This document shows positions 11,461 through 62,270 of a DNA stretch of 64,000 bases, piece by piece; the first letter of the stretch is position 1; every line of letters starts with the position of its first letter. This DNA is from an uncultured Massilia sp. (GTDB taxonomy: Bacteria > Pseudomonadota > Gammaproteobacteria > Burkholderiales > Burkholderiaceae). The notes under the pieces were generated by a model, which was not told the origin of the DNA, did not search any database, and saw nothing but the letters and a program-made list of their open reading frames with translations. The position numbers were made by a program, and so were the translations under genes. Location: contig CAMLMV010000018.1 of the NCBI GenBank assembly GCA_946481275.1, forward strand, positions 60,374 through 124,373, read 5' to 3'.

Positions 11461-12240
11461 ATGAATACAGAAGACGACTTTAGCGATGCCAAGGATGAAG
11501 CGCCCCCATCCTTATCGGACGCACATGTTCTTGATGAACGAGATAATATAGCCTCCTCTCAATTTGAGGATGTGATCGTGAACCACGATTCATACGGAAT
11601 CCGGCTTACCGATACAGCGGATGGGCGCAATTCGGCCAGTATGTTGATCAACAAGATGTACGCCTGGCGCGGCTATGCAGGCACGCATCAGCTCACCGAC
11701 GACCCGAATCGCATCACGCTCACGGCGACTGACAAGGGCGACGTGGTGGGTACGCTGAGCATCGGTATCGATTCCCCCAGTGGCCTGCTTGCGGACCAGC
11801 TCTTCAAGGAGGAGCTGGACATTCATCGCGCACGAGGCGCACGTTTATGCGAGTTCACGAAGCTGGCGTTCGATCCGTCGGTACGTTCTAAAACGGCACT
11901 TGCCAACCTGATTCACCTGGCGGTCATCTATGCGCGCGATATTCACAAATGCTCGGAGATCGTCATCGAAGTGAATCCGCGCCATCGCCGCTTCTACGAG
12001 CGCATGCTCGGTTTCAAACAGGAAGGCGAGCTGAAAACGAATCCGCGCGTCAATGCGCCGGCCTATCTGCTCTACATCAGCCTGGATTACATGTCACAGC
12101 AGATCCGGGAACATGGAGGCACTTACGATGGCAAGGGGGAAATGACGGACCGCTCCTTCTATCCTTACTTTTTTTCCCCTCGAGAAGAGTACGGCATTAT
12201 CAATCGCCTGTTACGCATGGACGAGCATGTGGCGTCCTGA
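11461..12240 (+). CDS. FeeM-like N-acyl amino acid synthase (GNAT fold)
   Basis: 259 residues. After about 45 polar residues it shows the FeeM-type arrangement: INKMYAWRGY (about 62-72), a beta-strand/turn region DVVGTLSIGID, then CEFTKLAFD and EIVIEVNPRHRRFYERMLGFK, a GNAT-fold signature near a pantetheine site. FeeM-type enzymes join a long-chain acyl group from acyl-ACP to an amino acid such as tyrosine; related acyltransferases are known beside PEP-CTERM/exosortase loci. It precedes a ThiF and a nitroreductase gene on the same strand and is separated from them by a terminator-like palindrome. Substrate unknown. No clear ribosome-binding site is seen before ATG 11461. Confidence 0.72.
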   Translation: MNTEDDFSDAKDEAPPSLSDAHVLDERDNIASSQFEDVIVNHDSYGIRLTDTADGRNSASMLINKMYAWRGYAGTHQLTDDPNRITLTATDKGDVVGTLSIGIDSPSGLLADQLFKEELDIHRARGARLCEFTKLAFDPSVRSKTALANLIHLAVIYARDIHKCSEIVIEVNPRHRRFYERMLGFKQEGELKTNPRVNAPAYLLYISLDYMSQQIREHGGTYDGKGEMTDRSFYPYFFSPREEYGIINRLLRMDEHVAS

Positions 12241-12245
12241 CAAGG

Positions 12246-12267
12246 AATGCCGCCTGCAGGCGGCATT
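12246..12267. terminator. 22-bp perfect palindrome with short T-run after the acyltransferase gene
   Basis: AATGCCGCCTG/CAGGCGGCATT is perfectly self-complementary and is followed by TTC GTTTC. It begins five bases after the stop of the acyltransferase, so it can act as a terminator or attenuator. An ATG at 12247, in frame with the next gene, lies inside it and is therefore an unlikely start. Confidence 0.6.
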
Positions 12268-12303
12268 TTCGTTTCATCAACAACCTTTTTTCCCTCTCCA
12301 TCA

Positions 12304-13191
12304 ATGAGCATGTCGTTCAACTACGAAGCCGCATTCTCGCGCAATATTGGCTGGGTTACGCCCGAGGAGCAGCAACGCTTACGCAATAAACGGGTGGCCA
12401 TTGCCGGGGGAGGAGGCGTCGGTGGCGTGCACCTGCTGACACTGGTGCGCCTGGGCGTCAGCAAATTTCACATCGCCGATTTCGACCGCTTCGATGTGCC
12501 GAATTTCAACCGCCAGGTCGGCGCCATGATGTCGACGCTCGACCAGCCAAAATGCGAGGTATTGGCCCGCATGGCGCGCGACATCAATCCGGAAGTCGAG
12601 ATCAAGCTCTTTCCGGAAGGTGTCAACCAACAAAACCTGCAGGAGTTCCTGCAGGATGTCGACCTGTACGTTGATGCACTCGACTTCTTCGCGTTCGACG
12701 CACGGCAACAGACGTTTGCCAAATGCGCTGAACTGGGCATACCGGCGACCACCGCGGCGCCGCTCGGCATGGGCGCCGCCCTGCTGAACTTCATCCCCGG
12801 GAAAATGACCTTCGAAGAATATTTCCAATGGGGCGACCTGCCCGAGGTCGATAAAGCGGTTCGCTTCCTCATTGGCCTGTCGCCGGCGGCCCTGCACCGG
12901 TCTTACCTGGTCGTTCCCGGGGCGATCAACCTGGCCGAGCGGCGCGGGCCGTCGACGATCATGGCCTGCCAGATGTGCGCAGGCATCATCGGAACGGAAG
13001 CGCTCAAGATCCTGCTGGGACGCGGCAAAGTATGGGCAGCACCTTACGGCATCCATTTCGATGCCTATCACAATAAACTGGTGCGTACCTGGCGTCCGGG
13101 GGGCAACAAGAATCCAATCAGCCGCTTGATCATCAAAGCCATGACCAAGCGAATCAAACTTCAGTTGGCCAGCCAGACCGCACAATCATGA
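12304..13191 (+). CDS. ThiF/E1-like adenylyltransferase
   Basis: 295 residues with the Rossmann nucleotide-binding loop AGGGGVGGVH (34-43) and the E1/ThiF signature ADFDRFDVPNFNRQVGA (about 59-75), in which the Asp and Asn-x-x-Arg residues bind ATP-Mg. Cys222 and Cys225 (CQMC) sit near the C-terminus where ThiF-fold enzymes often have metal or catalytic cysteines. The family adenylates a C-terminal carboxylate, usually of a ubiquitin-like protein or peptide. No ubiquitin-like protein gene is adjacent. The start at 12304 avoids the palindrome upstream; 12310 is an alternative, and neither has a good ribosome-binding site. The stop overlaps the nitroreductase start (ATGA at 13188), implying co-translation. 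Confidence 0.85.
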   Translation: MSMSFNYEAAFSRNIGWVTPEEQQRLRNKRVAIAGGGGVGGVHLLTLVRLGVSKFHIADFDRFDVPNFNRQVGAMMSTLDQPKCEVLARMARDINPEVEIKLFPEGVNQQNLQEFLQDVDLYVDALDFFAFDARQQTFAKCAELGIPATTAAPLGMGAALLNFIPGKMTFEEYFQWGDLPEVDKAVRFLIGLSPAALHRSYLVVPGAINLAERRGPSTIMACQMCAGIIGTEALKILLGRGKVWAAPYGIHFDAYHNKLVRTWRPGGNKNPISRLIIKAMTKRIKLQLASQTAQS

Positions 13192-14252
13192 CCATTCCAC
13201 AAAGCATCTACCGTATCCTGGATCTGGCCCGCTGGGCCCCAAGCGGCGACAACACCCAATGCTGGCGTTTCGAAGTGGTAGCCGCCGATCACGTGCTGGT
13301 GCACGCCCACGACACGCGTGCCGATACCGTCTACGACCTGGATGGCCATCCGAGCCAGATCTCGGTCGGCGCACTGCTGGAAACCATGGCGATCGCGGCA
13401 AGTGAACAGGGGCTGCGCACGGATATATCGCGCCGTGCCGACAGCCCCGTCGAGGCGCCCCTGTTCGATGTGCGTTTCAGTCCCGATCCCAAGGTTCAGC
13501 CTAGCCCGCTCATCGGCGCCATCGAAAAGCGCACGGTGCAGCGTCGTCCGATGAGCACACGTCCTTTGACGACGGAAGAAAAACGTGCGCTCGAGGATGC
13601 GGTCGGACCGGGATTCTCGGTGACGTGGATCGAGGGATTCGGCCCCAAATTGCGGATCGCACGTTTGATGTTCGATAACGCCAAGCTCCGCTTGACCATG
13701 CCCGAGGCCTACGAGGTCCATCGCCGCATCATCCACTGGAATGCCGTGCGCAGCCCGGACAAGGTACCGGACCAGGCCCTGGGCGTGGACAACATGACGC
13801 TCAAGCTGATGAAATGGGCGATGGCGAACTGGAAGCGCCTGTCGACGATGAACACGCTGATGGGCACGTGGGCGCCGCGTCTGCAGATGGATTTGATCCC
13901 CGGCGTGGCCTGCGCCGCGCACTTCGTGCTGAAAGCGCGCCAGGCGCCAAAGGGAATCGACGATTACGTCGAGGCCGGACGGGCCCTCCAGCGTTTCTGG
14001 CTCACGCTGACGCGGCTTGGCCTGTTGATGCAGCCCGAGATGACCCCGCTGATTTTCTCCAAATACGTACGCGAAGGCACGCACTTCACCGCCAATACCC
14101 GTCTGCATGGGCCGGCACGGCGCCTGGCGGAAGAAGTCGGTGCCCTCGTCTTCACCGATGACCTGTCCCCGGTCTACATGGGCCGGCTCGGCGAAGGACC
14201 ACTTCCCCACGCGCGCTCCGAACGTCTTCCGGTCGAACGCTTGCTGAAATAA
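13188..14252 (+). CDS. Nitroreductase-family protein paired with ThiF
   Basis: 354 residues with the nitroreductase opening LDLARWAPSGDNTQCWRF (11-28), which forms part of the flavin-binding site, and an Arg/Pro-rich region around EKRTVQRRPMS. It is longer than simple FMN nitroreductases (about 200 residues), with an inserted middle section. The 4-nt overlap with the ThiF gene shows tight coupling. ThiF plus nitroreductase also occurs as one fused protein in actinobacterial MoeY-type proteins, so these two probably act in one reaction. Substrate unknown. No intrinsic terminator with a clear stem is seen after the stop. Confidence 0.75.
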   Translation: MTIPQSIYRILDLARWAPSGDNTQCWRFEVVAADHVLVHAHDTRADTVYDLDGHPSQISVGALLETMAIAASEQGLRTDISRRADSPVEAPLFDVRFSPDPKVQPSPLIGAIEKRTVQRRPMSTRPLTTEEKRALEDAVGPGFSVTWIEGFGPKLRIARLMFDNAKLRLTMPEAYEVHRRIIHWNAVRSPDKVPDQALGVDNMTLKLMKWAMANWKRLSTMNTLMGTWAPRLQMDLIPGVACAAHFVLKARQAPKGIDDYVEAGRALQRFWLTLTRLGLLMQPEMTPLIFSKYVREGTHFTANTRLHGPARRLAEEVGALVFTDDLSPVYMGRLGEGPLPHARSERLPVERLLK

Positions 14253-14362: not shown

Positions 14363-14429
14363 TATATGAAGCCAGCAGCCGGCAGATGAAACTCTGCACA
14401 GATCACTACTGATGAACAAGGAGAGTCAG

Positions 14430-15257
14430 ATGAACGCAGTATTTAAAGCAATTGTAGGCGTTGCAGTTTCCGCAACGGTCATGTCGAGCGCGTATGCAGG
14501 CGCCCTGATCGACAAGTACACCCTGAACCTGCCGGGTCAGACCGTCACCAACATCGGCGCTCTGGGTTTCAACGGTGAGAGCTATATCAACAACACGTTC
14601 GTGGACCCGCTGAACAAAGACAAGTTCACCTTCCTGGACAACGGTATCTTCAACGTCACCACCAACAACGGTGGCGCTTCGCTGCTGGACTTCGGTCAGC
14701 TGACCCTCGACTACCAGAACGGCGTCGGCACCGGTAGCCTGTCGGGCGGCACGATCACCTTCGGTGCCGGCGGCACCCTGGACGTCTGGTACAACCCGAC
14801 CAAGGCCTATGCCAATGCTTCCAAGGGCGCTACCGCAGCCAACCGCTTCGGCGCCGCAACCGGCATCAAGATCGCTACCTTCACCCAGCTGGCAGGTGGC
14901 GGCGGCTTCATCAATCCGGACGGCACCCCGTCGTCGAACGGCAACCTGACCCTGCTGTTCGAAGCAACCAACCTGGCTGACGGCATCTGGTTCGACAAGG
15001 ACGGCAACGAACTGAAAGAAGGCGTCACCTTCGGCTTCGTGACCACGAACGCTTCGCAGGACGTCAACTCGATCGACCCGCTGCTGAAGACGACGCTGAG
15101 CGGCTCGAGCGGCACGGGCAACGCACCGCCGGATCACTTCTTCGTGCAGAACGGCGGCCAGCTGAAGCTGGAAGGCGCCGTGCCGGAACCGGCATCGCTG
15201 GCCATCTTCGGCGCTGGCCTGCTGGGCCTGGGCGCTCTGCGTCGCCGCAAGTCGTAA
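14430..15257 (+). CDS. PEP-CTERM sorting domain surface protein
   Basis: 275 residues. The start at 14430 has AAGGAG at 14418-14423 and gives a clean signal peptide (MNAVFKAIVG...SAYA, cleavage after about residue 23); the in-frame ATG at 14412 lies upstream of that site and is rejected. The mature part is a Gly/Asn/Thr-rich, beta-type extracellular domain. The C-terminus is a textbook exosortase signal: VPEP (251-254), a hydrophobic helix, then RRRKS. It is a predicted substrate of the exosortase A at 29.5 kb. PEP-CTERM proteins of this kind help retain exopolysaccharide and promote flocculation in related bacteria; whether this one is the PepA flocculation factor is uncertain. Confidence 0.92.
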   Translation: MNAVFKAIVGVAVSATVMSSAYAGALIDKYTLNLPGQTVTNIGALGFNGESYINNTFVDPLNKDKFTFLDNGIFNVTTNNGGASLLDFGQLTLDYQNGVGTGSLSGGTITFGAGGTLDVWYNPTKAYANASKGATAANRFGAATGIKIATFTQLAGGGGFINPDGTPSSNGNLTLLFEATNLADGIWFDKDGNELKEGVTFGFVTTNASQDVNSIDPLLKTTLSGSSGTGNAPPDHFFVQNGGQLKLEGAVPEPASLAIFGAGLLGLGALRRRKS

Positions 15258-15324: not shown

Positions 15325-16062
15325 TCACGAGGGCGCACCCCGCTGCAGGCGGCGGTTCAGCTGCTCGATCAGTTCGGACGCAGCGCCGACGATCTGGGCC
15401 GGCTCAAAACCCGCCCTGGTCATCTCGCTGAAAAACGAGCGCGCCAGGATCTTCGCGACGTCCTCCGGGTTGCGATAGGCAAGCCGCACCGGGTCGCCGG
15501 CGTGCGCGCGGGCTTCCTGCAGCAGCGCCATCTGGGCGAAGCGCGAATCGAGCAGGTGCTGCAACTGCTGCACCTGGATCGATTTGCCGATGAACAGGGC
15601 CGTCACTTCGAGCAGATGCAGCTCGGTCTCGCCGAAGGCCGGCTGGCCACGCGTACTGGCAACATTGATCACGCCGACCAGCTGGCCGTCGATGCGTATC
15701 GGCGCGCAAATCAGACTGGTTCCGGCCTGCGCGTGCCTGCGCGCGAGCGGCGCCAGTTCGGATGTGCCGATGTCGGGCACGAGCAGCGCTTCGCCGCTGG
15801 CCAGGACCCGGCCGGCGATGCCTTCGCCACGTCCGACCGAGGCGCGCAGTGCCTCCTCGGGCAGCGGGCCATGGCGCGCATACATGCTCATGCGCGTCCC
15901 TTCGTCTTCGCCGCCGCCCAGCAGCATGATCGAACAACTCGATGCGCCGATCAGCGCCGTAGTCATCGCGGCTTGCTGGTCGAGGCTTTCTTCGAGCGTG
16001 CCGCTGGCCAGGACGTGCTGCAAGTCCCGCAGGCGCAACAACGGATTGCGTGCATCGTCCAT
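15325..16062 (-). CDS. GAF domain-containing protein
   Basis: 245 residues from ATG 16062, which has GAGG five bases upstream; the frame continues to a TTG at 16098 without a better site. One GAF domain covers about residues 10-165 (STLICAPI-like strand as GTSLICAPIRIDGQLVGVINV), followed by a helical C-terminus (EDVAKILARSFFSEMTRAGF). GAF domains bind small ligands or mediate dimerisation; there is no attached kinase, cyclase or HTH, so the output is unknown. It converges on the PEP-CTERM gene across a bidirectional terminator and lies downstream of the HprK-related cassette on the same strand, after a 95-bp gap. Confidence 0.8.
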   Translation of the reverse strand: MDDARNPLLRLRDLQHVLASGTLEESLDQQAAMTTALIGASSCSIMLLGGGEDEGTRMSMYARHGPLPEEALRASVGRGEGIAGRVLASGEALLVPDIGTSELAPLARRHAQAGTSLICAPIRIDGQLVGVINVASTRGQPAFGETELHLLEVTALFIGKSIQVQQLQHLLDSRFAQMALLQEARAHAGDPVRLAYRNPEDVAKILARSFFSEMTRAGFEPAQIVGAASELIEQLNRRLQRGAPS

Positions 16063-16157
16063 GCCATCCTCACTGAACAGGCGTTGTATTAAATTCAAGA
16101 CGCCAGGGTATGGTATGCGATTTGCGGCGTGGAAACCAGCCGCATCGGCGCCGCGGC

Positions 16158-17243
16158 TCAGGGCGCGGATTCGGAACGCGGCCTGAGAAAGGCTTTATGG
16201 AACAGGTGGCGCGACAGCAGCAACGGCGGCATGCGCAGCCAGTTGCCGCGCACGTAGAGCACGAAGCGCGCGATCGCGCTGGCGGGGGTGTCGCAGCTTG
16301 CGTGCTGCGGACGCAGGGCGCGTTCGAACAGGCTGTCCATCAGCTTGCGCAGCACCGGATTCGGACCGTCCTGCGCCACCGCGTCCAGTACATCTTGCGG
16401 CACTGTGGTGCCGAGCAACAGACGGCAGTAGCGCAGCGCATAGAACAGCGGCCGCCCCAGCTCCAGCGCGCGTGCGCGCGCCGGCAGTCCTTCCCAGAAG
16501 CCCGGCTCTGCGCCGAACTGCTCGAGCAGGCGGTGCAGGTCGAACAGGTCGCGCAAGCCCTTGTCGAATTCGCCGTCGAAGAACAGGTGCACGGCGCTGT
16601 GCAGCACCATGTCGTGCGGCGCCAGCACGGCCAGGCCGGGGATGCCGTCGATCGGACGCGCGTGCGCCCGCAAGCTGTCCGGGTCGGGGCGCACCGGCGC
16701 CGTCTCCGGCAGGATCGCGTGGTGCACGTCGATCGAGTTGCCGCGCCGCGCGTGCTGCATCGGCGGCAACTCGTGCATCCATTGCCGGTAATAGCGCTGG
16801 TCGTAGGCGTCGTGGTGGGTCGTGATCCAGCCGTTCATCATGAGGGCTGCTTCGACCTCCGGCAGGCGCGCCTTCGGTACGAGGATGTCGATGTCGGAAA
16901 ACAGCCGGCCGCGGCCGGCGTCCAGGCCCGCCATCGCATACGCCGCACCCTTAAGCAAGATCAATGGCAAGCCCAGTCCCGCCAATGCCCGGCCGATCTG
17001 GCGGACCTCGTAGCGCGCGGCCCGGGCGTGGCTCGCCGCGCCCACGCGCGTCCACTCCAGGTGCGTGCGCGGCGCGGCCGGCACCGTGTCCAGCAGCCCG
17101 GCATCTTCCAGCCGCACGAGCAGGAGAGCGTCGAGATTGGCGACATCGGCCTGGCGCAGCAACAAGTCCCAGCCGGCGTCGTCCAGGTCCCGCACGACCG
17201 ATGGATCGCGCAACACCCGCACCAGTACGGGCAGGCGCTTCAT
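16158..17243 (-). CDS. Nucleotidyltransferase-family protein of the HprK-related cassette
   Basis: 361 residues of the large bacterial nucleotidyltransferase family (NTP_transf_5 type). The signature GRGRLFSDIDILVP (about 110-123) carries the catalytic Asp-x-Asp. A following His-rich region (HHDAYDQRYYRQWMHELPPMQH) and a C-terminal helical domain complete it. Its ATG overlaps the stop of the HprK-related kinase gene by 4 nt. Such proteins are regularly found with HprK-related kinase A and a PqqD-like protein; the transferred nucleotide and target are not known. Confidence 0.78.
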   Translation of the reverse strand: MKRLPVLVRVLRDPSVVRDLDDAGWDLLLRQADVANLDALLLVRLEDAGLLDTVPAAPRTHLEWTRVGAASHARAARYEVRQIGRALAGLGLPLILLKGAAYAMAGLDAGRGRLFSDIDILVPKARLPEVEAALMMNGWITTHHDAYDQRYYRQWMHELPPMQHARRGNSIDVHHAILPETAPVRPDPDSLRAHARPIDGIPGLAVLAPHDMVLHSAVHLFFDGEFDKGLRDLFDLHRLLEQFGAEPGFWEGLPARARALELGRPLFYALRYCRLLLGTTVPQDVLDAVAQDGPNPVLRKLMDSLFERALRPQHASCDTPASAIARFVLYVRGNWLRMPPLLLSRHLFHKAFLRPRSESAP

Positions 17244-18157
17244 GCCTCCCCCTGCGCCAGGCGTTCGAACAGCGCCATCGCTTCGGGCAGGCTGCTGTAG
17301 CGGAACGTATAAGCGTCGCTGGCGTCGACCAGCCGGCCGAGTGCCGTAAAGCCGCGCGCACCCAGCACCTGATAATTGAAACAGTTGTCGGCCACCTGCA
17401 TGAAGGCGCGCGCTTTCGGCAGCGGGTCAAGTTGCACGGCGGCGCCGGCCTCCCAGCGCGGGAACACGATGCAGGCCGGCCGTGCCGGTTCGACGGCGCG
17501 GGCGATGCTCTCGGCCGGCGCCTTCAGGTGGGCGATCGTCCCCTTGGTCGTTTCCTCCACGGGACGGCTGAGTACGGCATCCGGACGGAACGCGCGGATG
17601 ATGTCGATCGACGTATTCTTGAGGCTGACCGGGCGCGGCAGCGGCACGAGGACGCCGTCATCGAGGTGCACGAGCGTCATCTCGTCCGACAGCAGGCGCC
17701 AGCCGTGTCCCAGCAGGGCAGCCGTCAGCGTGCTCTTGCCGGAGCCGGGCGGCGCCGGCAGGATGATGGCGCGGCCATGTTTTTCCAGCACGGCCGCGTG
17801 GATGATCAGGTAGCCGTGGGCACGGTGCGAGACGCACCAGTTCATGGTCCATTCCAGCATCGGATACGCCTGCGCCAGCGGCAAAGGCTGGAATGGCGTG
17901 GTGCCGTCGTAGGCGAAATGCACCTGCGACCGGTACCAGCGGCGCAGGCCGCCCGAGCGCCTCAGTTCGAGATGGAAATCGACGAAGCCGCCTGTGGGCT
18001 CGACGGGATAATCCGCATACATCAGCGCGACGCTGTCGATCAACGGCGCCACGTCGCTGCGGATGCGGTTGGTGAAGGGTCCGGTGCGCAGCACGAGGCC
18101 GTCACCGGACAGGCGCGCCACGAGCTCGGCGCGCGGCAGCGAACCGACCGTCAGCAT
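17240..18157 (-). CDS. HprK-related kinase A
   Basis: 305 residues. The core is an HPr kinase-like P-loop fold: Walker A APPGSGKST (Lys141) with a hydrophobic strand before it (YLIIHAAVLEKHGRAIILP) and LLSDEMTLVH after it, matching the HprK catalytic domain. It lacks the N-terminal regulatory domain of true HprK, and no HPr or phosphotransferase gene is nearby. It overlaps the PqqD-like gene by 7 nt and the nucleotidyltransferase by 4 nt. Members of this group form the so-called HPr-rel-A system of unknown chemistry; a kinase or ATP-dependent modifier of a small protein is the usual guess. Confidence 0.85.
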   Translation of the reverse strand: MLTVGSLPRAELVARLSGDGLVLRTGPFTNRIRSDVAPLIDSVALMYADYPVEPTGGFVDFHLELRRSGGLRRWYRSQVHFAYDGTTPFQPLPLAQAYPMLEWTMNWCVSHRAHGYLIIHAAVLEKHGRAIILPAPPGSGKSTLTAALLGHGWRLLSDEMTLVHLDDGVLVPLPRPVSLKNTSIDIIRAFRPDAVLSRPVEETTKGTIAHLKAPAESIARAVEPARPACIVFPRWEAGAAVQLDPLPKARAFMQVADNCFNYQVLGARGFTALGRLVDASDAYTFRYSSLPEAMALFERLAQGEA

Positions 18158-18417
18158 GGCTCGATCAGGTCCAGTCCGGCAAGCGCCGCGAGCATCTCGT
18201 CGATCAGGAAAACGAGGTCGTCGTCCCCGGCCTCGAAGCGGTCGGCCAGGCGGCCGGCCAGTGCGGCCGCATCGGCGGGCTCGTCACGCAGGGCGAACAA
18301 CAGGTCGAGCGCGGCGCCGTCCAGCAGGTGGGTATTGCCCGACAGGTCGTTGTACAGCACGGCTTCCCCATCCCATTCCCGGCAGGCCAGCGCCTGGCCA
18401 GGCGTCAGACGCCACAT
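18151..18417 (-). CDS. PqqD-like peptide chaperone of the HprK-related cassette
   Basis: 88 residues from ATG 18417 (MWRLTPGQAL). The pattern WDGEAVLYNDLSGNTHLLDG followed by two helices ending DEMLAALAGLDLIEP is the PqqD/RRE-like fold: a beta-strand pair, an 'L-N' turn and helices. The frame is open further upstream, but those residues overlap the end of the preceding gene and do not look like PqqD. PqqD folds bind a precursor peptide and present it to a modifying enzyme, which is why the neighbouring 205-residue protein is of interest as a substrate. Confidence 0.82.
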   Translation of the reverse strand: MWRLTPGQALACREWDGEAVLYNDLSGNTHLLDGAALDLLFALRDEPADAAALAGRLADRFEAGDDDLVFLIDEMLAALAGLDLIEPC

Positions 18418-18434
18418 GCGTTTCGCTGCCTCGT

Positions 18435-19052
18435 TCAGTCGTGAATGGAGGCGAGGTAGTTGGCGACCTGGGCATTGTCCCAGTACACGCCAGCGGTCGG
18501 GCAGTAGCGGCCCGTGGTCTGCAGCTCGCTCCACATCGTCTGCAGGTCGGTAAGATCGAGGAAGCCGACCAGTTTCTGCTGAACGTTCAGGTAGGCCGCC
18601 ACCAGATGCATGCCGACGTTGTTCGTGTCGAACGGCTGCGGGTTCAGCATGTCTTCAAGCTTGGCGCAGCCGTACGAACCCGGGTGGTAGCACTTGCCCG
18701 GTTCGTACGACGCAGCGCGCACCGGACAGTTGGTGCCGGGCGTGCCATAAAAAACATCGGTGAACTTGAGGTCGCGCGACACCGGCCATGCGTGCTGGGG
18801 CTGTTTCCAGTGGCCGGGCGACAGGCCGTTGCAGGCCGGTGCCTTCGTGCCGTAATGGCTCGTGGCAAGGCCGTTCGACAGCGAGCCCGAGGGTGCTCTG
18901 CAGACCATCGACGCCATCGCCGATTTGCTTTCAAGCGTTGCGAGTACCCCCGCGCCCATGCCCGCTTTGGCCAGGCGGCGGCGGGCCGCGCCCCGTTTGG
19001 TCAAGGACGGCGCCGTTTCGATTTTGTCGTTATCTTGATGTTCGGTAGCCAC
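18435..19052 (-). CDS. Cysteine-containing exported-type protein, first gene of the HprK-related operon
   Basis: 205 residues with a GTG start at 19052 (GGGGAA about 7 nt upstream). The N-terminus has an arginine pair and a weakly hydrophobic stretch (KRGAARRRLAKAGMGAGVLATL) ending in AMA, reminiscent of a Tat- or Sec-like signal with probable cleavage near residue 47. The mature part carries several Cys (C51, then CNGLSPGHWK, CPV, CYHPGSYGC, RYCP) and the motif LSPGHWK. No enzyme domain is recognised. It is 17 nt upstream of the PqqD-like gene and directly behind a sigma-54 promoter, so it is the likely structural or substrate protein of the cassette. Confidence 0.7.
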   Translation of the reverse strand: MATEHQDNDKIETAPSLTKRGAARRRLAKAGMGAGVLATLESKSAMASMVCRAPSGSLSNGLATSHYGTKAPACNGLSPGHWKQPQHAWPVSRDLKFTDVFYGTPGTNCPVRAASYEPGKCYHPGSYGCAKLEDMLNPQPFDTNNVGMHLVAAYLNVQQKLVGFLDLTDLQTMWSELQTTGRYCPTAGVYWDNAQVANYLASIHD

Positions 19053-19242: not shown

Positions 19243-19872
19243 TCAGAAGAAGCTTTCCGGGATGACCAGAACATCGCCCGGACGCATCGGCACGTTGGCC
19301 GAGATGTCGCCGTCCTTGACCAGGTCGTCCAGACGGACGTTGAACCGTTGTTGTTTGCCGTCCACGTTACGGATCAGGCTTGCGCGATTACCCGCGGCGA
19401 ACTCGGTGGTGCCGCCGACGGCGATCATCACGTCCATCAGGCTCATGTCGCGGCGATACGGCAGCGCCTGCGGCTTGGTCGCCTGGCCGATCACCCGGAT
19501 CTGTTCGGAATAATTGCCGACGAAGTTCGTGACGACGACGGTGACGACAGGCTGCTGGATATACTTGGCCAGGGCTTTTTCGATGTCGCGTGCGAGTGCA
19601 GTCGACGTCTTGCCGGCGGCCGGCAGGTCTTCGACGAGCGGCGTCGTGATCTTGCCGTCCGGACGAACCGGCACTGCCATCGAGACTTCCGGGTTGCGCC
19701 AGACGATGATGTTGACGGAATCGCCGGGCCCGATCAGATACTGGGCATCGGTCACCTGCGTCTCGATCGGCTGTTGGCCGCCGCGCGTTGCGCAACCGCC
19801 CAGCGCCAGCGCGCACGCGGCGGCGAGCACGATCGCCGAATATTTCCCCAGATTCGCCTTGTACTTGCCCAC
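19243..19872 (-). CDS. XrtA-associated polysaccharide export (OPX/Wza-like) lipoprotein
   Basis: 209 residues with a GTG start at 19872 (AGGGAT upstream). Lipoprotein signal with lipobox LGGC (Cys27), then the polysaccharide export domain (YLIGPGDSVNIIVWRNPEVS, PVRPDGKITTPLVEDLPAAG) and a SLBB-type segment (IRVIGQATKPQALPYRRDMSLMDVMIAVGG). This is the short OPX class that supplies the outer-membrane export channel or an adaptor to it. It is transcribed away from the main operon whose polymer it presumably exports, with the protease gene upstream. Its own promoter region has a TTGGCAC but no -12 GC. Confidence 0.9.
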   Translation of the reverse strand: MGKYKANLGKYSAIVLAAACALALGGCATRGGQQPIETQVTDAQYLIGPGDSVNIIVWRNPEVSMAVPVRPDGKITTPLVEDLPAAGKTSTALARDIEKALAKYIQQPVVTVVVTNFVGNYSEQIRVIGQATKPQALPYRRDMSLMDVMIAVGGTTEFAAGNRASLIRNVDGKQQRFNVRLDDLVKDGDISANVPMRPGDVLVIPESFF

Positions 19873-28273: not shown

Positions 28274-29476
28274 ATGGAAGACCTGCTGCTGCTGATCCAC
28301 CGGATCCCGTACCCGCCCAACAAGGGCGACAAGATCCGCTCGTACCACCTGCTCAAGCACCTGGCCCGGCACTACCGCGTGCACCTGGCCACGTTCGTGG
28401 ACGATCCCGACGACTGGCAGTACGTGCCGCACGTCGAGGCGCTGTGCGCCAGCAGCCATTTCGCCGGCATGAAGCCCCTGCTGGCGCGCGTGCGCAGCCT
28501 GCAGGCACTGCTGAAGAACCGCTCGCTCTCGCTCGAGTACTACCGCGACGCGACGCTCGCGCGCTGGGTCGACGACACCGTGGCCAAACACAAGATCGAG
28601 CGCGTGCTCGTGTTCTCGTCGGCGATGGCGCAGTACGCCGACCCGTACCGCTCGGCGCGCCGCGTCGTCGACTTCTGCGACGTCGACTCCGATAAATGGC
28701 GCCAGTACGCCGAACAGAAATCGTGGCCGATGAACTGGCTGTACCGCTACGAGGCGCGCCGGCTGCTCGCGTACGAACGCCGCGTGGCGCGCGACTACGA
28801 TGCGTCGCTGTTCGTCTCGGCGCCGGAGGCTGACCTGTTCCGCAAGCTGGCGCCGGAAAGCACGGCCAAGATCGGCCACTTCAGCAACGGCGTCGACACC
28901 GACTACTTCTCGCCCGACCAGCCGCATGCGAATCCGTACGCGGCGGGCGAACGCGCCCTCGTGTTCACGGGCGCGATGGATTACTGGCCGAACGTGGATG
29001 CCGTGCAGTGGTTCGCGGCCGACGTCTTCCCGCAACTGCGCGAGCGCTTCGGCGACGTGAAGTTCTACATCGTCGGCTCGCGGCCGGCGCCGGCCGTGCA
29101 GGAACTGGCCAGACTGCCCGGCGTCGTCGTGACGGGCACCGTGCCGGACGTGCGGCCGTACATCGCGCATGCCGCCGTGTCGGTGGCGCCGCTGCGCATC
29201 GCGCGCGGCATCCAGAACAAGGTGCTGGAAGCGATGGCGATGGCGACGCCGGTCGTCGTGTCGCCGCAGGCACTGGAAGGCATCGACGCCGTGCCGGGCA
29301 GCGAACTGGTACTGGCCGGGGATGCCGGCGGCTTCGTCGACGCCGTGAGCACGCTGCTGGCCGGCCAGGAGAGCGCGGCCGCCGCGATCGGCGCCGCCGC
29401 GCGCGCCAAGGTCCAGCGCCGCTACAGCTGGTCCAGCAACCTGGCCTGCATTGGGGAGAGTCTCGAATGTTCCTGA
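28274..29476 (+). CDS. XrtA-associated glycosyltransferase, stp1 type (GT4-like)
   Basis: 400 residues. N-terminal Rossmann half begins LLLIHRIPYPPNKGDKIRSYHLL, which is characteristic of the stp1 sugar transferases of exosortase A loci. The C-terminal half has the nucleotide-sugar region (ALVFTGAMDYWPNVDAVQWF; VSVAPLRIARGIQNKVLEAMAMATPVV, with the family Glu). Cytoplasmic or membrane-associated; adds one sugar to the lipid-linked repeat unit. Starts 3 nt after the FemAB stop and overlaps the exosortase gene by 10 nt. Confidence 0.9.
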   Translation: MEDLLLLIHRIPYPPNKGDKIRSYHLLKHLARHYRVHLATFVDDPDDWQYVPHVEALCASSHFAGMKPLLARVRSLQALLKNRSLSLEYYRDATLARWVDDTVAKHKIERVLVFSSAMAQYADPYRSARRVVDFCDVDSDKWRQYAEQKSWPMNWLYRYEARRLLAYERRVARDYDASLFVSAPEADLFRKLAPESTAKIGHFSNGVDTDYFSPDQPHANPYAAGERALVFTGAMDYWPNVDAVQWFAADVFPQLRERFGDVKFYIVGSRPAPAVQELARLPGVVVTGTVPDVRPYIAHAAVSVAPLRIARGIQNKVLEAMAMATPVVVSPQALEGIDAVPGSELVLAGDAGGFVDAVSTLLAGQESAAAAIGAAARAKVQRRYSWSSNLACIGESLECS

Positions 29477-31026
29477 AACCGCCGCCCGGCGTGATCAACA
29501 CCACTTCCGCTCCGATCTCGCGCCAGGGCACGGCCCTGATCGCGCTGGCCCTGCTCGCACCGTTCCTGCTGTACCTGGGCACGGTGCGCTCGATCGTCTC
29601 GGTGTGGAACAGTTCCGAAACCTTCGCCCACGGCTACGTGATCCTGCCGATCAGCCTGTGGCTCATCTGGCGCCGGCGCGAGAATTTCAGCCTGTACCCG
29701 CCGAAACCGTGGCCGCCCGCGCTGCTGCTGCTGGGCGTCCTCGGCGCCGGCTGGCTCGCGGCCCAGCTGGGCGAGGTGCAGGTGGTGTCGCAATACACGT
29801 TCGTCGCAATGCTGCCCGTCGCCGCGCTGGCCCTGTTCGGCCCGCGCCTGGCCGGCTCGCTCACCTTCCCCCTGCTGTTCCTGCTGTTCGCGGTGCCGTT
29901 CGGTGAAATCTTCGTGGGACCGCTGATCCAGTTCACGGCCGACTTCACGGTGTGGGCCGTGCGCGCCACCGGCATCCCCGTGCTGCGCAGCGGCACCCGT
30001 TTCGAACTGCCGACCGGTAACTGGTCCGTGGTGGAAGCCTGCAGCGGCGTGCGCTACCTGATTTCCTCGATCACGCTGGGCTGCCTGTACGCCTACCTGA
30101 CCTACCGCTCCACGGTCCGCCGCGCCCTGTTCGTGGGCCTGTCCGTCATCGTCCCCATCATCGCCAACGGCCTGCGCGCCTACATGATCGTGATGATCGG
30201 TCACCTGTCCGGCATGGAACTGGCGACGGGCGTCGACCACATCATCTACGGCTGGCTGTTCTTCGGCCTCGTCATGTTCGTCATGTTCTGGATCGGCAGC
30301 TTCTGGCGCGAGGACACCGTCCCCGCGCCGGCTTCCGCCTCCGCGACTGCGTCCGCGGCATCCGCGCCGCGCGCGGCGGGCACGCCGCCGCGCCTGCCGG
30401 CGATGGTGATCGGTGTCCTGGCCGTGTGCGCGTTCTGGCCCGCACTGGCGCTGATGGGCGAACGCGTCAACCACAACCCGGCCCCCGTGCGCCTGGCCGA
30501 CGTCGCCGTGACCGCGCCGCCGGCCGCCGACTTCGCGGACTGGAAGCCCTTCTACATGGAACCGGATGCGCGCTTCCACCGCGCCTACCAGGCAGGCGGC
30601 CTGCCCGTCAGCCTGACCGTCCTGTACTACCGCAACCAGAACCCGGGCAAGAACCTGATCAGCTCCATGAACCGCCTGAGCGGCTACGAGGATGCCTGGC
30701 ACGAGGTCGAAGGCACGTCGCGCGCCGAGACTGTCGCCGGTACGCCGGTGACGCTGCACGAGGGCATCCTGCGCACGCCGCAAGGCGCGATCATGGTCTG
30801 GGCCTTCAAATGGGTCGGCGGCCATTACACGGGCAGCGACTACGTCGGCAAGCTGTGGCAGGCCGCGAACAAGGCGATGATGCGCGGCGACGACGGCGCC
30901 GCCGTGATGCTCGCCGTCCCATACGACAACGACAAGGAACGCGCGCGCGCGGCGCTGCATCGCTTCCTGGCCGAACAGGGTCCGGCACTGGACCAGGCGC
31001 TGAACGCGACCCGAACCCACAAATAA
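29467..31026 (+). CDS. xrtA: Exosortase A with fused EpsI domain
   Basis: 519 residues. The first 290 or so form the multi-pass exosortase with the catalytic triad in membrane-proximal positions: Cys192 (VEACSGVRYL), Arg237 (NGLRAYMIV) and His258 (GVDHIIYGW). After an Ala-rich linker (about 280-300) and one more membrane helix comes an EpsI-type periplasmic domain (DWKPFYMEPDARFHRAY onward, about 340-510). It cleaves PEP-CTERM proteins at the Pro-Glu-Pro signal and probably transfers them to an anchor or polymer. ATG 29467 overlaps the glycosyltransferase stop. Substrates include the protein at 14430. Confidence 0.95.
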   Translation: MFLKPPPGVINTTSAPISRQGTALIALALLAPFLLYLGTVRSIVSVWNSSETFAHGYVILPISLWLIWRRRENFSLYPPKPWPPALLLLGVLGAGWLAAQLGEVQVVSQYTFVAMLPVAALALFGPRLAGSLTFPLLFLLFAVPFGEIFVGPLIQFTADFTVWAVRATGIPVLRSGTRFELPTGNWSVVEACSGVRYLISSITLGCLYAYLTYRSTVRRALFVGLSVIVPIIANGLRAYMIVMIGHLSGMELATGVDHIIYGWLFFGLVMFVMFWIGSFWREDTVPAPASASATASAASAPRAAGTPPRLPAMVIGVLAVCAFWPALALMGERVNHNPAPVRLADVAVTAPPAADFADWKPFYMEPDARFHRAYQAGGLPVSLTVLYYRNQNPGKNLISSMNRLSGYEDAWHEVEGTSRAETVAGTPVTLHEGILRTPQGAIMVWAFKWVGGHYTGSDYVGKLWQAANKAMMRGDDGAAVMLAVPYDNDKERARAALHRFLAEQGPALDQALNATRTHK

Positions 31027-32287: not shown

Positions 32288-33454
32288 ATGAATGCACCTG
32301 CTCCTGCGCTCACACCGGCCGGCGTCGACACGCGGCCGCTGGTCGTGCACCTCGTGTATTCGCTCGGCGTGGGCGGCCTGGAGACGCTGCTCGTCGACTG
32401 CATCAACCGCATGCCGGCGTGGCGCCACGCCGTCGTCTGCCTGACGACCTACACGTCGTTCGCCGACCGCATCGCGCGCCGCGACGTCGAGCTGCACGCG
32501 CTCGGCAAGCCGCCGGGCCTCGGCCTCGGCACGCACCTGACGTTCTGGCGCCTGATGCGGCGCCTGCGTCCCGCCGTGCTGCACACGTATAACCTGGCGG
32601 CGCTGGAGTACGCGTTCACGGCGACGATGGCCGGCGTCCCCGTACGCATCCACGCGGAACACGGCCGCGACGCGAGCGACCCGCACGGCCTGAACCCGAA
32701 GCACAACTTCCTGCGCCGCCGCCTCGTCCCGTTCGTCGACCGCTTCATTCCCGTGTCCGAAGACCTGAACCGCTGGCTCGGCGACGTCGTGCGCATCCCG
32801 GCCGCGAAGACGCTGTTCATCAAGAACGGCGTCGACACGGACAAGTATGCGCCCGGTGGCACGCCCGCAGCGGATGCGCCCTTCAATGCGGACGACATCG
32901 TCATCGGCACCGTCGCCCGCGTGCAGGACGTCAAGAACCACCGCGCCCTCGTCGACGCGTTCGCGCGGTTGCGCGCGCAGCTGCCGGACCTGGCGCCGCG
33001 CCTGAAGCTGGCGATCGTCGGCGACGGGCCGCTGCTGCCGGCCGTGCGCGACCAGGTCGCAAAGCTCGGCCTCGACGGCGCCGTGTGGCTGCCGGGGTCG
33101 CGCGCGGACATCGCCGCCGTGCTGCACACGTTCTCGATCTTCGCCCTGCCCTCGCTGGCCGAAGGCACACCCGTATCGATGCTGGAAGCGATGGCGTGCG
33201 GCCTGCCCGTCGTCGCCTCGCGCGTCGGCGGCATCCCGGAAGTCGTCGACGAAGGCGTGCAGGGCCTCCTGGTGCCGGTCGGCGACGTCGACGCCTTGAC
33301 GGCCGCACTGGCGCGCTACGCGCAGGATGCCGGCCTGCGTTCCAATCACGGCGTCGCTGCCCGCGCGCGCGTGGAAGACCGTTTCAGCCTGCGCGCCATG
33401 GTGGCCGCGTACGGCGCGCTGTACGACGGACTGTGCCGAAACAAGGCACACTGA
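32288..33454 (+). CDS. XrtA-associated glycosyltransferase, stp2 type (GT4)
   Basis: 388 residues, GT-B fold. LVVHLVYSLGVGGLETLLVDCINRMP (about 21-46) holds the glycine-rich GT4 acceptor loop; AEHGRDASDPHG and the donor site EGTPVSMLEAMACGLPVVASRVGGIPE follow. The C-terminal half is complete. Third consecutive sugar transferase in the operon, 16 bp after the previous one. Acts at the cytoplasmic face. Confidence 0.9.
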   Translation: MNAPAPALTPAGVDTRPLVVHLVYSLGVGGLETLLVDCINRMPAWRHAVVCLTTYTSFADRIARRDVELHALGKPPGLGLGTHLTFWRLMRRLRPAVLHTYNLAALEYAFTATMAGVPVRIHAEHGRDASDPHGLNPKHNFLRRRLVPFVDRFIPVSEDLNRWLGDVVRIPAAKTLFIKNGVDTDKYAPGGTPAADAPFNADDIVIGTVARVQDVKNHRALVDAFARLRAQLPDLAPRLKLAIVGDGPLLPAVRDQVAKLGLDGAVWLPGSRADIAAVLHTFSIFALPSLAEGTPVSMLEAMACGLPVVASRVGGIPEVVDEGVQGLLVPVGDVDALTAALARYAQDAGLRSNHGVAARARVEDRFSLRAMVAAYGALYDGLCRNKAH

Positions 33455-33496: not shown

Positions 33497-35404
33497 ATGT
33501 GCGGAATAGTCGGAATCTTTGACACCCAGGGCAACCGGGAGATCGACCGCGAAGCGCTGCGGCGCATGAACGAAAGCCAGCACCATCGCGGTCCCGACGA
33601 AGGCGAGCTGTATCTGGAAAAGGCCCTGGGCATGGGCCACCGCCGCCTGTCCGTGATCGACGTGGCCACGGGCCAGCAGCCGTTCCTGAATGCGGCGCGC
33701 GACGTGGCCCTCGTCTTCAACGGCGAGATCTACAACTACCGCGCGCTGCGCGACGAACTGGTCGCGCTGGGCCACGTGTTCCGCACGAAATCCGACACGG
33801 AAGTCGTCATGAACGCCTGGATCGCATGGGGCGAGGACTGCGTGCGCCGGCTGCGCGGCATGTTCGCGTTCGGCGTGTGGGACCGCAGGAAGCAGACGCT
33901 GTTCCTCGCCCGCGACCACGTGGGCGTGAAACCGATGTTCTATTCGCTGCTGCCCAGCGGCCTGTTCGTATTCGGCTCGGAACTGAAGTCGATCATGACC
34001 TTCCCCGAACTGTCGCGCAAGCTGAACCCGCGCGCCGTCGAGGATTACTTCGCCTACGGCTACGTGCCGGAGCCGAACACCATCTTCCACAACGCCTATA
34101 AACTCAGCCCCGGCCACTCGATCCTGCTGAAGGTCGGCGACCGGGCCGTGACGCCCAAGCGCTGGTGGGACCTCGCGTTCAACGTGGCGCCGGCGCGGCC
34201 GGAAGCGGACGTGGAGGCCGAGCTGATCGAGCGCGTGCGCGAAGCGGTGAAAAGCCAGATGGAAGCGGAGGTGCCGCTGGGCGCCTTCCTGTCCGGCGGC
34301 GTGGATTCCAGCGCCGTCGTCGCGATGATGGCGGGCGAACGTGACGGCACCGTCAGCGAAGGCGTGACGACGTGCTCGATCGGCTTCGACGATCCGGAAT
34401 TCGACGAGACGCAGTACGCGATGCAGGTGGCGCAGCGCTACCGCACGCACCACCACGCGCAGATCGTCGACAAGGACGACTACGGCCTGATCGACACGCT
34501 GGCGCACCTGTACGACGAACCGTTCGCCGACAGCTCCGCGATCCCGACCTACCGCGTGTGCCAGCTGGCACGCCGCCACGTGACGGTGGCGCTGTCGGGC
34601 GACGGCGGCGACGAGAATTTCGCCGGCTACCGCCGCTACCGCTTCGCGATGGCCGAGCACAGCGTGCGCTCGAAGGTGCCGGAAGCGATCAGGAAGCCGC
34701 TGTTCGGCACCCTGGGCAGCCTGTATCCGAAGGCCGACTGGGCACCGCGCGTGTTCCGCGCCAAGACGACGTTCGAGTCCATCGCGCGCGACCTCGTCGA
34801 GGGTTATTTCCACGGCGTGTCGCGCCTGCCGGACCGCCAGCGCGACCTGCTGTTCTCGGACACGTTCCGCAGTGACCTGCAGGGCTACCGCGCGATCGAC
34901 GTGATGCGCGCCCACGCCAAGGAGGCGCCGACCGACGATCCGCTGTCGCTGATCCAGTACCTCGATTTCAAGACCTGGCTGCCGGGCGACATCCTGACGA
35001 AGGTCGACCGCGCCAGCATGGCCCACTCGCTGGAAGTGCGCGTGCCGCTGCTCGACCACGAATTCTGCGAATACGCGGCGACGCTGCCCCCGGGCCTGAA
35101 ACTGCGCGGCGGCGAAGGCAAGTACATTCTCAAGAAGTCGCTGGAGCCGCACCTGCCGCACGACATCATGTACCGTTCCAAGAAGGGCTTCTCGATCCCG
35201 CTGGCGGCCTGGCTGCGCGGCCCGCTGCGCGACGCCGTGCGCGAGGCCGTGCTGGGCGCGCGCCTGGTCGATACCGGCATCTTCAACCGGCGCTACCTGG
35301 AAAAGCTGGTGGCCGAGCACCACGCCGGCACGGCCGACCACAGCGTGGCGTTGTGGTCGCTGATGATGTTCGATGCGTTCCTGCGGGTGAGCGCAGGGTC
35401 TTAG
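33497..35404 (+). CDS. XrtA-associated asparagine-synthase-like amidotransferase
   Basis: 635 residues. Class II glutamine amidotransferase domain at the N-terminus with nucleophile Cys2 (MCGIVGIFD) and RLSVIDVATGQQPF; C-terminal asparagine synthase domain with PP-loop LSGGVDSSAVVAM (about 264-276) and SGDGGDENFAGYRRYR. It should transfer ammonia from glutamine to an AMP-activated carboxylate, plausibly a uronic acid or acyl carboxylate in the polymer (a 6-dehydrogenase is encoded at 58.4 kb). Last gene of the operon; its stop codon overlaps the convergent decarboxylase gene by 4 nt. Confidence 0.92.
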   Translation: MCGIVGIFDTQGNREIDREALRRMNESQHHRGPDEGELYLEKALGMGHRRLSVIDVATGQQPFLNAARDVALVFNGEIYNYRALRDELVALGHVFRTKSDTEVVMNAWIAWGEDCVRRLRGMFAFGVWDRRKQTLFLARDHVGVKPMFYSLLPSGLFVFGSELKSIMTFPELSRKLNPRAVEDYFAYGYVPEPNTIFHNAYKLSPGHSILLKVGDRAVTPKRWWDLAFNVAPARPEADVEAELIERVREAVKSQMEAEVPLGAFLSGGVDSSAVVAMMAGERDGTVSEGVTTCSIGFDDPEFDETQYAMQVAQRYRTHHHAQIVDKDDYGLIDTLAHLYDEPFADSSAIPTYRVCQLARRHVTVALSGDGGDENFAGYRRYRFAMAEHSVRSKVPEAIRKPLFGTLGSLYPKADWAPRVFRAKTTFESIARDLVEGYFHGVSRLPDRQRDLLFSDTFRSDLQGYRAIDVMRAHAKEAPTDDPLSLIQYLDFKTWLPGDILTKVDRASMAHSLEVRVPLLDHEFCEYAATLPPGLKLRGGEGKYILKKSLEPHLPHDIMYRSKKGFSIPLAAWLRGPLRDAVREAVLGARLVDTGIFNRRYLEKLVAEHHAGTADHSVALWSLMMFDAFLRVSAGS

Positions 35405-61289: not shown

Positions 61290-62270
61290 ATGGCAACGAT
61301 ACGCAAGCGAGGCGAAGGCCAATACCACGTTCAGATTCGCAAACGCGGCTATCCCACCCAAACCAAGACCTTCAGCAAGGAAGCCGATGCACGGCGATGG
61401 GCAACCATCATCGAATCAGAGATGGAACGTGGCGTGTTTGTTTCACGCAACGAGGCGGAGGCAACGCTTGTTGAAGAGGTGTTGACACGATATGCCAACG
61501 AGATACTGCCGACCAAACGAAGTGAGCAATCTGACAAGTCGCGTATTAAAACGCTGATTGAGGCGTTTGGTCCCTACAGGCTTGCGAGCTTGAACTCATC
61601 ACAAGTTGCTCAGTTCCGAGACAAACGGTTGAAAGTCGTTGGGCCGCAGTCAGTGATACATGAGATCAGTCTCCTGAACCGGGTACTGAAGACAGCGACT
61701 ATGGAGTGGAACATTGCTTTACCAGGTGGAATCCCAACTGCGCAAGTACGTAAGCCAATGAAGCCGCGTGGTCGTGACCGTCGAGTGAGCGATGCAGAGA
61801 TCACAAAAATTCTTAACACAACCGAATCTGCCGAGCTGCGCACGATCGTCATTCTTGCGATCGAAAGCGGGATGCGGAGGAGTGAGCTTGCGACTCTGAC
61901 TTGGGAAGAAATCGATCTGAAAAGCCAGACAGCTCATCTTCCGCTGACGAAGACTGATGTCCCACGTACCGTACCGCTTTCCAAAACTGCAGTTGCAGCG
62001 CTGAAGAAGTTCGGCAAAAAACACGAGGGGCGCGTGTTCTCTCTTCAGGCAGAATCAATGAGTCAAGCTTTCGAGCGCGCCTGTGAACCGCACAGAGCAA
62101 ATATCGTCGGCTTACGCTTCCATGACATGCGACACGAGGCGACCAGCCGACTATTTGAGAAAGGTCTAAACGTTATGGAGGTTGCTGCAATTACAGGTCA
62201 TAAGACGTTAGATATGCTAAAACGTTATACCCATTTGCGAGCCGAAGATCTAGCGAAGAAACTAAATTAA
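61290..62270 (+). CDS. Tyrosine recombinase/site-specific integrase
   Basis: 326 residues. N-terminal RGEGQYHVQIRKRGYPTQTKTF is the arm-binding-like domain found in phage integrases; the SAM-like core domain follows. Catalytic residues: Arg196 (SGMRRSEL), His278/Arg281 (FHDMRHEA), His304 (TGHKTLDM) and nucleophile Tyr313 (KRYTHL). Complete and probably active. It lies about 100 bp from the broken tRNA-Arg, on the opposite strand. Its stop overlaps the toxin gene stop by 3 nt. Confidence 0.93.
   Translation: MATIRKRGEGQYHVQIRKRGYPTQTKTFSKEADARRWATIIESEMERGVFVSRNEAEATLVEEVLTRYANEILPTKRSEQSDKSRIKTLIEAFGPYRLASLNSSQVAQFRDKRLKVVGPQSVIHEISLLNRVLKTATMEWNIALPGGIPTAQVRKPMKPRGRDRRVSDAEITKILNTTESAELRTIVILAIESGMRRSELATLTWEEIDLKSQTAHLPLTKTDVPRTVPLSKTAVAALKKFGKKHEGRVFSLQAESMSQAFERACEPHRANIVGLRFHDMRHEATSRLFEKGLNVMEVAAITGHKTLDMLKRYTHLRAEDLAKKLN

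Follow-up and report, generated by a model that had tools for sequence, protein, structure and literature searches.

A four-gene cassette with HPr-rel-A enzymes

The window analysed here, a stretch of 64,000 nucleotides from contig CAMLMV010000018.1 of an uncultured Massilia sp., carries a four-gene operon on the minus strand at positions 16158-19052, as delimited by open reading frame (ORF) analysis. The first gene (18435-19052, GTG start) encodes an exported leader protein of 205 residues, the candidate substrate of the products of the other three genes: a PqqD-like peptide chaperone (18151-18417, 88 residues counted from ATG), an HprK-related kinase A (17240-18157, 305 residues) and a nucleotidyltransferase of the NTP_transf_5 family (16158-17243, 361 residues). 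A gap of 17 nt separates the gene for the exported protein from that for the PqqD-like protein, which overlaps the kinase gene by 7 nt, and the kinase and transferase genes overlap by 4 nt. These coordinates agree with the gene order and joins proposed in a first-pass annotation, which also placed a promoter ahead of the operon. A weak sigma-70-like site does lie upstream on the minus strand (19221-19192), but with one site found against 0.6 expected by chance it does not establish a promoter. The remark in that annotation that HPr is missing holds for the four cassette genes, to which the HPr search was confined within the window. A normal HPr and a normal HPr kinase are encoded elsewhere in the genome in four of four same-genus genomes tested, and the cassette kinase is therefore a separate paralogue. 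The kinase of Massilia kyonggiensis is 99% identical to that of the window.

Curated protein families bear out the three enzyme identities that had been read from the sequence alone. The kinase scores 401.9 bits against HprK_rel_A (TIGR04352, cut-off 200) and the PqqD-like protein 56.4 bits against PqqD_rel_X (TIGR04353, cut-off 35), and this pair of NCBIfam matches assigns the cassette to the HPr-rel-A system. The transferase scores 193.5 bits against NTP_transf_5 in Pfam (PF14907, cut-off 31.2). The general PqqD model of Pfam (PF05402) gives the PqqD-like protein 16 bits, under its cut-off of 23.4; the NCBIfam title of its own family already reads 'peptide chaperone'. The enzymes are thus already named in NCBIfam, whereas neither NCBIfam nor Pfam offers a model for the exported partner. 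We found no paper describing the system in the literature searched, which leaves out most subscription journals. The kinase does not qualify as an HPr(Ser) kinase/phosphorylase, with 12.4 bits against TIGR00679 (cut-off 240), and it has a weak similarity in the P-loop region to SynChlorMet ScmC and HprK-related kinase B (30.4 and 22 bits, far under the cut-offs of 125 and 200).

The active sites are strictly conserved. The Walker A motif of the kinase, APPGSGKST, spans residues 135-143 (17729-17755, minus strand), and its G140, K141 and T143 are identical in 139 of 139 aligned rows, as are H120 (17798-17800, minus strand) and the catalytic-type pair D158-E159 (17681-17686, minus strand). The available part of a review of lasso systems (PMC9266682) gives the kinase motif there as His-Lys-Asp-Asp, compared to HKDE here, the two being matched by motif order and not by alignment. 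In the transferase, K98, G99, R113, D117, D119 and D172 are identical in 124 of 124 rows. In the predicted model of the kinase, the whole-length fit to phosphoenolpyruvate carboxykinase (PEPCK) is better than the core fit to HPr kinase, and the model suggests that the N-terminal third is also PEPCK-like. Two enzyme fusions occur among the loci surveyed, PqqD-kinase in L084 and kinase-transferase in L104. Rather than modifying a protein, the kinase and transferase could act on small molecules in a sugar-phosphate or cofactor pathway for polysaccharide, with the exported protein binding the product. This we regard as improbable: such chemistry has no evident place for a PqqD-type protein, which is in one case fused to the kinase, and the systems with the same enzyme trio act on peptides in the available parts of the papers that describe them.

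Linkage of the kinase to an exported protein

Kinase loci were collected from three overlapping panels of genomes: 61 relatives, 300 members of the order and 398 members of the phylum, of which 33, 50 and 61, respectively, are over the kinase cut-off. With eight named loci these gave 138 fetched loci. Four of them are duplicates (L005, L010, L011 and L013, equal to L031, L037, L035 and L036) and were removed before identities, tails and cysteines were counted. One phylum genome with a kinase over the cut-off, G502, was left out of the fetched loci, its gene being split over two contigs. In the first-pass annotation, absence of the exported protein from most cassettes would have refuted the model. 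Instead, the protein adjoins the kinase in 131 of the 138 loci, 126 by profile (E ≤ 0.01) and five by eye as a similarly built protein (L068, L127, L128, L129 and L133), or in 127 of 134 without the duplicates. A first profile, made from the 91 database proteins of the family (window protein included), had found it in 38 of 38 initial loci and in 74 of all 138; the count of 126 comes from the iterated profile. In control scans, just one of 386 ORFs in the window matches, namely 18435-19052, and among 6079 ORFs of the loci there are three further matches at E ≤ 0.1, whose coordinates are those of the leader proteins in L128, L129 and L133.

The exported protein was not found in seven of the 138 loci. 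Five of them (L100, L101, L107, L113 and L122) have neither an exported protein nor a PqqD gene that could be detected. In L137 the PqqD gene is present and the slot holds a different frame, MarR-like by eye, and L138 is truncated by a contig end. Whether the Cys protein always comes first had been put forward as a point to survey. It usually does, but not always: the gene follows the transferase gene in six loci (L050, L058, L064, L065, L067 and L082) and lies on the opposite strand in L098. Gene order is variable, yet the members of the cassette stay together. In 12 of 138 loci a gene for a TPR-sulfotransferase stands immediately behind the kinase gene (L087, L095, L096, L097, L105, L109-L112 and L114-L116). 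A nucleotidyltransferase was not found within the fetched stretch in seven of these 12, among them L087 and L114, whose stretches may end too early.

The exported protein is rare where the kinase is lacking. In the 61-genome panel, a family alignment (A1) matches 32 genomes, 31 of them among the 33 kinase-positive ones, with one copy each. The 28 genomes without a kinase over the cut-off contribute a single match (G011), which we judge spurious as it covers 38 residues inside a 965-residue frame. In the 300-genome panel, a diverse alignment (A5) matches next to the kinase in 48 of the 50 genomes over the kinase cut-off, and the iterated profile recovers the other two, G147 and G154, as loci L053 and L072. 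A5 gives weak matches in 10 of 250 kinase-negative genomes, most of them partial, with a best E-value of 5e-8 in a 1301-residue frame. The match in G089 (E = 1.8e-4), from a genome that is 84% complete and belongs to a genus known to carry the cassette, may be a true copy. Kinase and exported protein co-occur one-to-one.

Leader, body and tail of the exported protein

The window protein has no family match in NCBIfam, Pfam or PADLOC, and 46 diverse members of its family give only scattered weak matches in NCBIfam and Pfam. The core of its twin-arginine-like leader, RRRLAKAG ... SAMA, spans residues 24-48 (18909-18983, minus strand), with R24 and R25 invariant in alignments of 24 and 52 sequences. 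RRx[FLIM] stands ahead of a hydrophobic stretch in 121 of 122 distinct family members, and the sole exception, in L108, is an 82-residue ORF that starts within the hydrophobic stretch. This arrangement, a twin-arginine motif before a hydrophobic stretch, resembles the signal of twin-arginine translocation (Tat) substrates. All 11 genomes tested have a TatC gene, and 10 of these genomes are kinase-positive.

The body is the fastest-evolving part of the cassette. Median pairwise identity, from 200 random pairs of 34 loci in the Massilia family, is 0.37 for the body of the exported protein, compared to 0.50 for the PqqD-like protein, 0.60 for the kinase and 0.63 for the transferase. The AlphaFold2 model of the window protein is confident from about residue 70 on and has no significant match among solved structures. 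Family members are mostly ORFs of 140-290 residues, with start codons unrefined. The label 'Cys-rich', which the first-pass annotation used for this protein, does not define the family: whole ORFs hold from 0 to 11 cysteines, and two of 122 members have none. What the members have in common is the RR leader and, in most of them, one of two kinds of C-terminal motif.

A tail of the SCWxS[F/L] type is present in 49 of 122 members, compared to 0.4-0.5% of interior windows or shuffled tails. Tails of the YLx(1-3)[S/T] type, expected by chance in 2-6%, are found in 48 of the 122. The tail of the window protein belongs to this YL type. Its C-terminal YLASIHD (18438-18458, minus strand) ends in D205 and is the candidate phospho-acceptor region, with Ser202, three residues from the end, as the putative acceptor. 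The Alphaproteobacterial-looking members in the loci of family f65 (L127-L135) are short, and their near-fixed, FTC[FY]ASLQMPR-like tail is much more constant than in other lineages.

Exopolysaccharide setting and relation to phospho-peptide systems

A scan of 30 chosen ORFs of the window reveals an XrtA/PEP-CTERM exopolysaccharide locus, each component of which scores over its NCBIfam cut-off. Next to the cassette lies the gene for the XrtA/PEP-CTERM exopolysaccharide export protein (19243-19872, minus strand; TIGR03027, 244.3 bits, cut-off 180). The locus further comprises a chain-length protein, a tyrosine autokinase, an outer-membrane protein, an ATPase, a deacetylase and a FemAB protein. 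The plus strand carries the stp1 glycosyltransferase (28274-29476; TIGR03087, 578.1 bits), an ORF that contains exosortase A (29008-31026; TIGR03109, 346 bits over residues 177-435) and the stp2 glycosyltransferase (32288-33454; TIGR03088, 451.8 bits). The locus also includes stp3, an amidotransferase, an acyl-CoA ligase, hydrolase 1, PrsR, PrsK and an EpsB-type transferase. Neither HPr nor PqqD was found to be mentioned in the available part of the 2006 PEP-CTERM/EpsH paper (PMC1569441).

This setting recurs. Of the 50 genomes of the order that have the kinase, 47 also have exosortase A (XrtA) over its cut-off (the exceptions being G042, G171 and G173), compared to 26 of the 250 others. The two genes lie within 60 kb of each other on one contig in 16 of the 47 genomes, farther apart (104 kb to 2.4 Mb) in four and on separate contigs in 27. 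The co-occurrence therefore does not merely reflect close linkage. This pattern does not hold outside the order: an exosortase match (E ≤ 0.001) was found in 26 of 54 genomes with the kinase, 24 of them over the cut-off. Among flanking ORFs chosen by hand, and therefore non-random, stp1 or stp2 is over the cut-off in 10 of 10 proteins, eight of which come from genomes where an exosortase match was not found, and a set of 90 contains 14 matches to stp1 and eight to stp2 (E ≤ 1e-10). Because stp1 or stp2 persists beside the cassette where an exosortase was not found, the cassette seems to have a steadier neighbour in the polysaccharide machinery than in the sorting enzyme.

The full XrtA exopolysaccharide locus around the cassette also offers many other possible targets for the kinase and transferase, such as exopolysaccharide regulators or partners of the tyrosine autokinase, and the exported protein could then be mere cargo, co-regulated within one exopolysaccharide programme. 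However, each kinase comes with a single exported protein, which is retained through gene rearrangement and across genomes, and also where an exosortase was not found, and we consider such other targets unlikely.

The same three activities are known from systems that modify peptides. According to the available part of the review (PMC9266682), the precursor in paeninodin-type lasso clusters receives a phosphate on its C-terminal serine from an HprK-like kinase (PadeK, PsmK), and the addition of hexoses there requires the nucleotidyltransferase homologue PsmN. The cassette has an HprK-like kinase and a nucleotidyltransferase homologue in common with these clusters. The serine is the last precursor residue in the paeninodin type; the window protein instead ends in D205, with Ser202 as the nearest serine. 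No lasso macrolactam cyclase is encoded among the four cassette genes. An Asn-synthase-like protein of the window (33497-35404) was considered as a lasso cyclase and rejected, as it scores 1021.3 bits as the XrtA amidotransferase (cut-off 816.9) and 268.9 of the required 525 against the lasso cyclase model. In a survey of rumen genomes, HPr kinase was present in 58%, PqqD in 46% and an uncharacterised nucleotidyltransferase in 30% of the genomes analysed, as stated in the part of that paper at hand (PMC7533575).

A further parallel is found in the LPPs, ribosomally synthesized and post-translationally modified peptides (RiPPs) of Bacillota that were described in 2026. Their clusters (LppA, LppB, LppK, LppN, LppS, LppD) include a recognition element, an HprK-like kinase and an NTP transferase; their precursors, of 35-200 residues, have a constant leader and a variable remainder; the genes are embedded in capsular polysaccharide loci, and LppK phosphorylates a core serine, all according to the available part of the paper (PMC13381572). 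The cassette likewise clusters a recognition element, an HprK-like kinase and an NTP transferase, which we equate with LppB, LppK and LppN by described function. It also shares the precursor with a constant N-terminal and a highly variable C-terminal part, as well as the setting in a polysaccharide locus; many cassette tails recur, however. LPPs have a YxxP leader motif, an SpI-type leader peptidase, an exporter and Bacillota hosts, whereas the cassette has a twin-arginine-like leader, a predicted folded body and a Pseudomonadota host. The words Proteobacteria, Pseudomonadota and exosortase were not found in the available main text of the LPP paper (PMC13381572).

Given the constant leader, the variable body and the PqqD-like protein, HprK-like kinase and transferase seen in both, the exported protein might itself be a classical RiPP precursor, whose variable body is trimmed to a small secreted signal or antimicrobial peptide as in lasso peptides and LPPs. 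We regard this as doubtful. The window protein is predicted to be folded from about residue 70 on, and most members are ORFs of 140-290 residues, counted from unrefined starts. Moreover, a search limited to the four cassette genes found no SpI-, LppS- or B2-type peptidase and no exporter, and the leader motif [YW]xxPx[LVIFA], related to the [Y/W]xxP bound by the recognition elements of lasso and LPP systems, is present in just two of 121 leaders.

Our preferred reading, to which we give a probability of about 0.6, is that the exopolysaccharide machinery has in the cassette its own dedicated system for modifying a protein, a Pseudomonadota counterpart of the phospho-peptide systems of Bacillota that acts on an entire exported protein. 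The analysis itself shows a genetic unit that is conserved, a one-to-one pairing of kinase with exported protein, conserved residues in the active sites, the two fusions and the exopolysaccharide context. As the cassette has the same three activities as the lasso and LPP systems and a larger exported substrate, a similar path can be proposed. The product of the first gene, with its twin-arginine-like leader and its variable body, would be held in the cytoplasm by the PqqD-like protein. HprK-related kinase A would phosphorylate a Ser or Thr, most likely the recurring hydroxyl residue near the C terminus. The nucleotidyltransferase, joined in some lineages by the TPR-sulfotransferase, would further elaborate the phosphate or the protein. 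The modified protein would then be exported, probably via Tat, and would act on or in an stp1/stp2-type exopolysaccharide, as its context suggests. Phosphorylation or nucleotidylation and PqqD binding are what we infer from the invariant catalytic residues, the fusions and the lasso and LPP precedent.

All chemical steps of this reading are inferred, and several observations weigh against it. The rarity of [Y/W]xxP in the leaders means that PqqD binding may differ from that in lasso and LPP systems. The PqqD profile gave no match in 12 of 138 loci, where no search for a diverged PqqD in the gap was made, and six of these 12 (L119, L121 and L123-L126, all of f58) still have the exported protein. 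In a set of 126 tails, made up of the 122 members and four sphingomonad-like proteins and without L068, 26 match neither C-terminal pattern, chiefly in families f50 (eight) and f58 (six), and the acceptor site may therefore be elsewhere. Curated Tat profiles give weak matches, TIGR01409 in two and TIGR02811 in four of 46 members (best E 0.0036), and none to the window protein. Beyond the order, 28 of 54 genomes with the kinase gave no exosortase match, several of them being only 57-85% complete. Finally, the surveyed loci themselves went into the iterations of the profile, and A5 holds members from searched genomes. The positives are therefore in part a product of construction, which the rarity of the exported protein in kinase-negative genomes is not.

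If modification of the exported protein is correct, the HPr-rel-A enzymes, annotated but unexplained, gain a concrete substrate candidate. The phospho-RiPP theme of Bacillota would reach Pseudomonadota and widen from peptides to entire exported proteins, and the role of the enzymes and the exported protein in polysaccharide loci becomes testable in easily grown environmental bacteria. A far more speculative extension, which we think unlikely to hold, is a general bacterial link between protein and exopolysaccharide. Here, the kinase would attach a phosphate to a hydroxyl near the C terminus, the transferase would convert it to a phospho-sugar stub (a phosphodiester), Tat would export the folded protein, and the stp1/stp2-type polymer would be built on or linked to it.

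The host is a soil bacterium, and its cassette adjoins exopolysaccharide genes. On the other side, 59 nt behind the transferase gene and on the same strand, lies a gene for a GAF-domain protein (15325-16098, 61 bits). A PEP-CTERM protein that adjoins the cassette (14412-15257) resembles the flocculation protein PepA, with 75.4 bits just under the cut-off of 80. At 12247-14252 a ThiF/E1-like gene (NF006077, 452 bits) overlaps an Acg-type nitroreductase-like gene (127 of 199 bits), and the pair is preceded by an ORF that looks acetyltransferase-like by eye (11461-12240). Towards the far end of the window, the segment 61145-63763 is probably a genomic island: it contains a tRNA-Arg, followed by an ORF that is integrase-like by eye (61290-62270) and by ORFs with low GC content at third positions.

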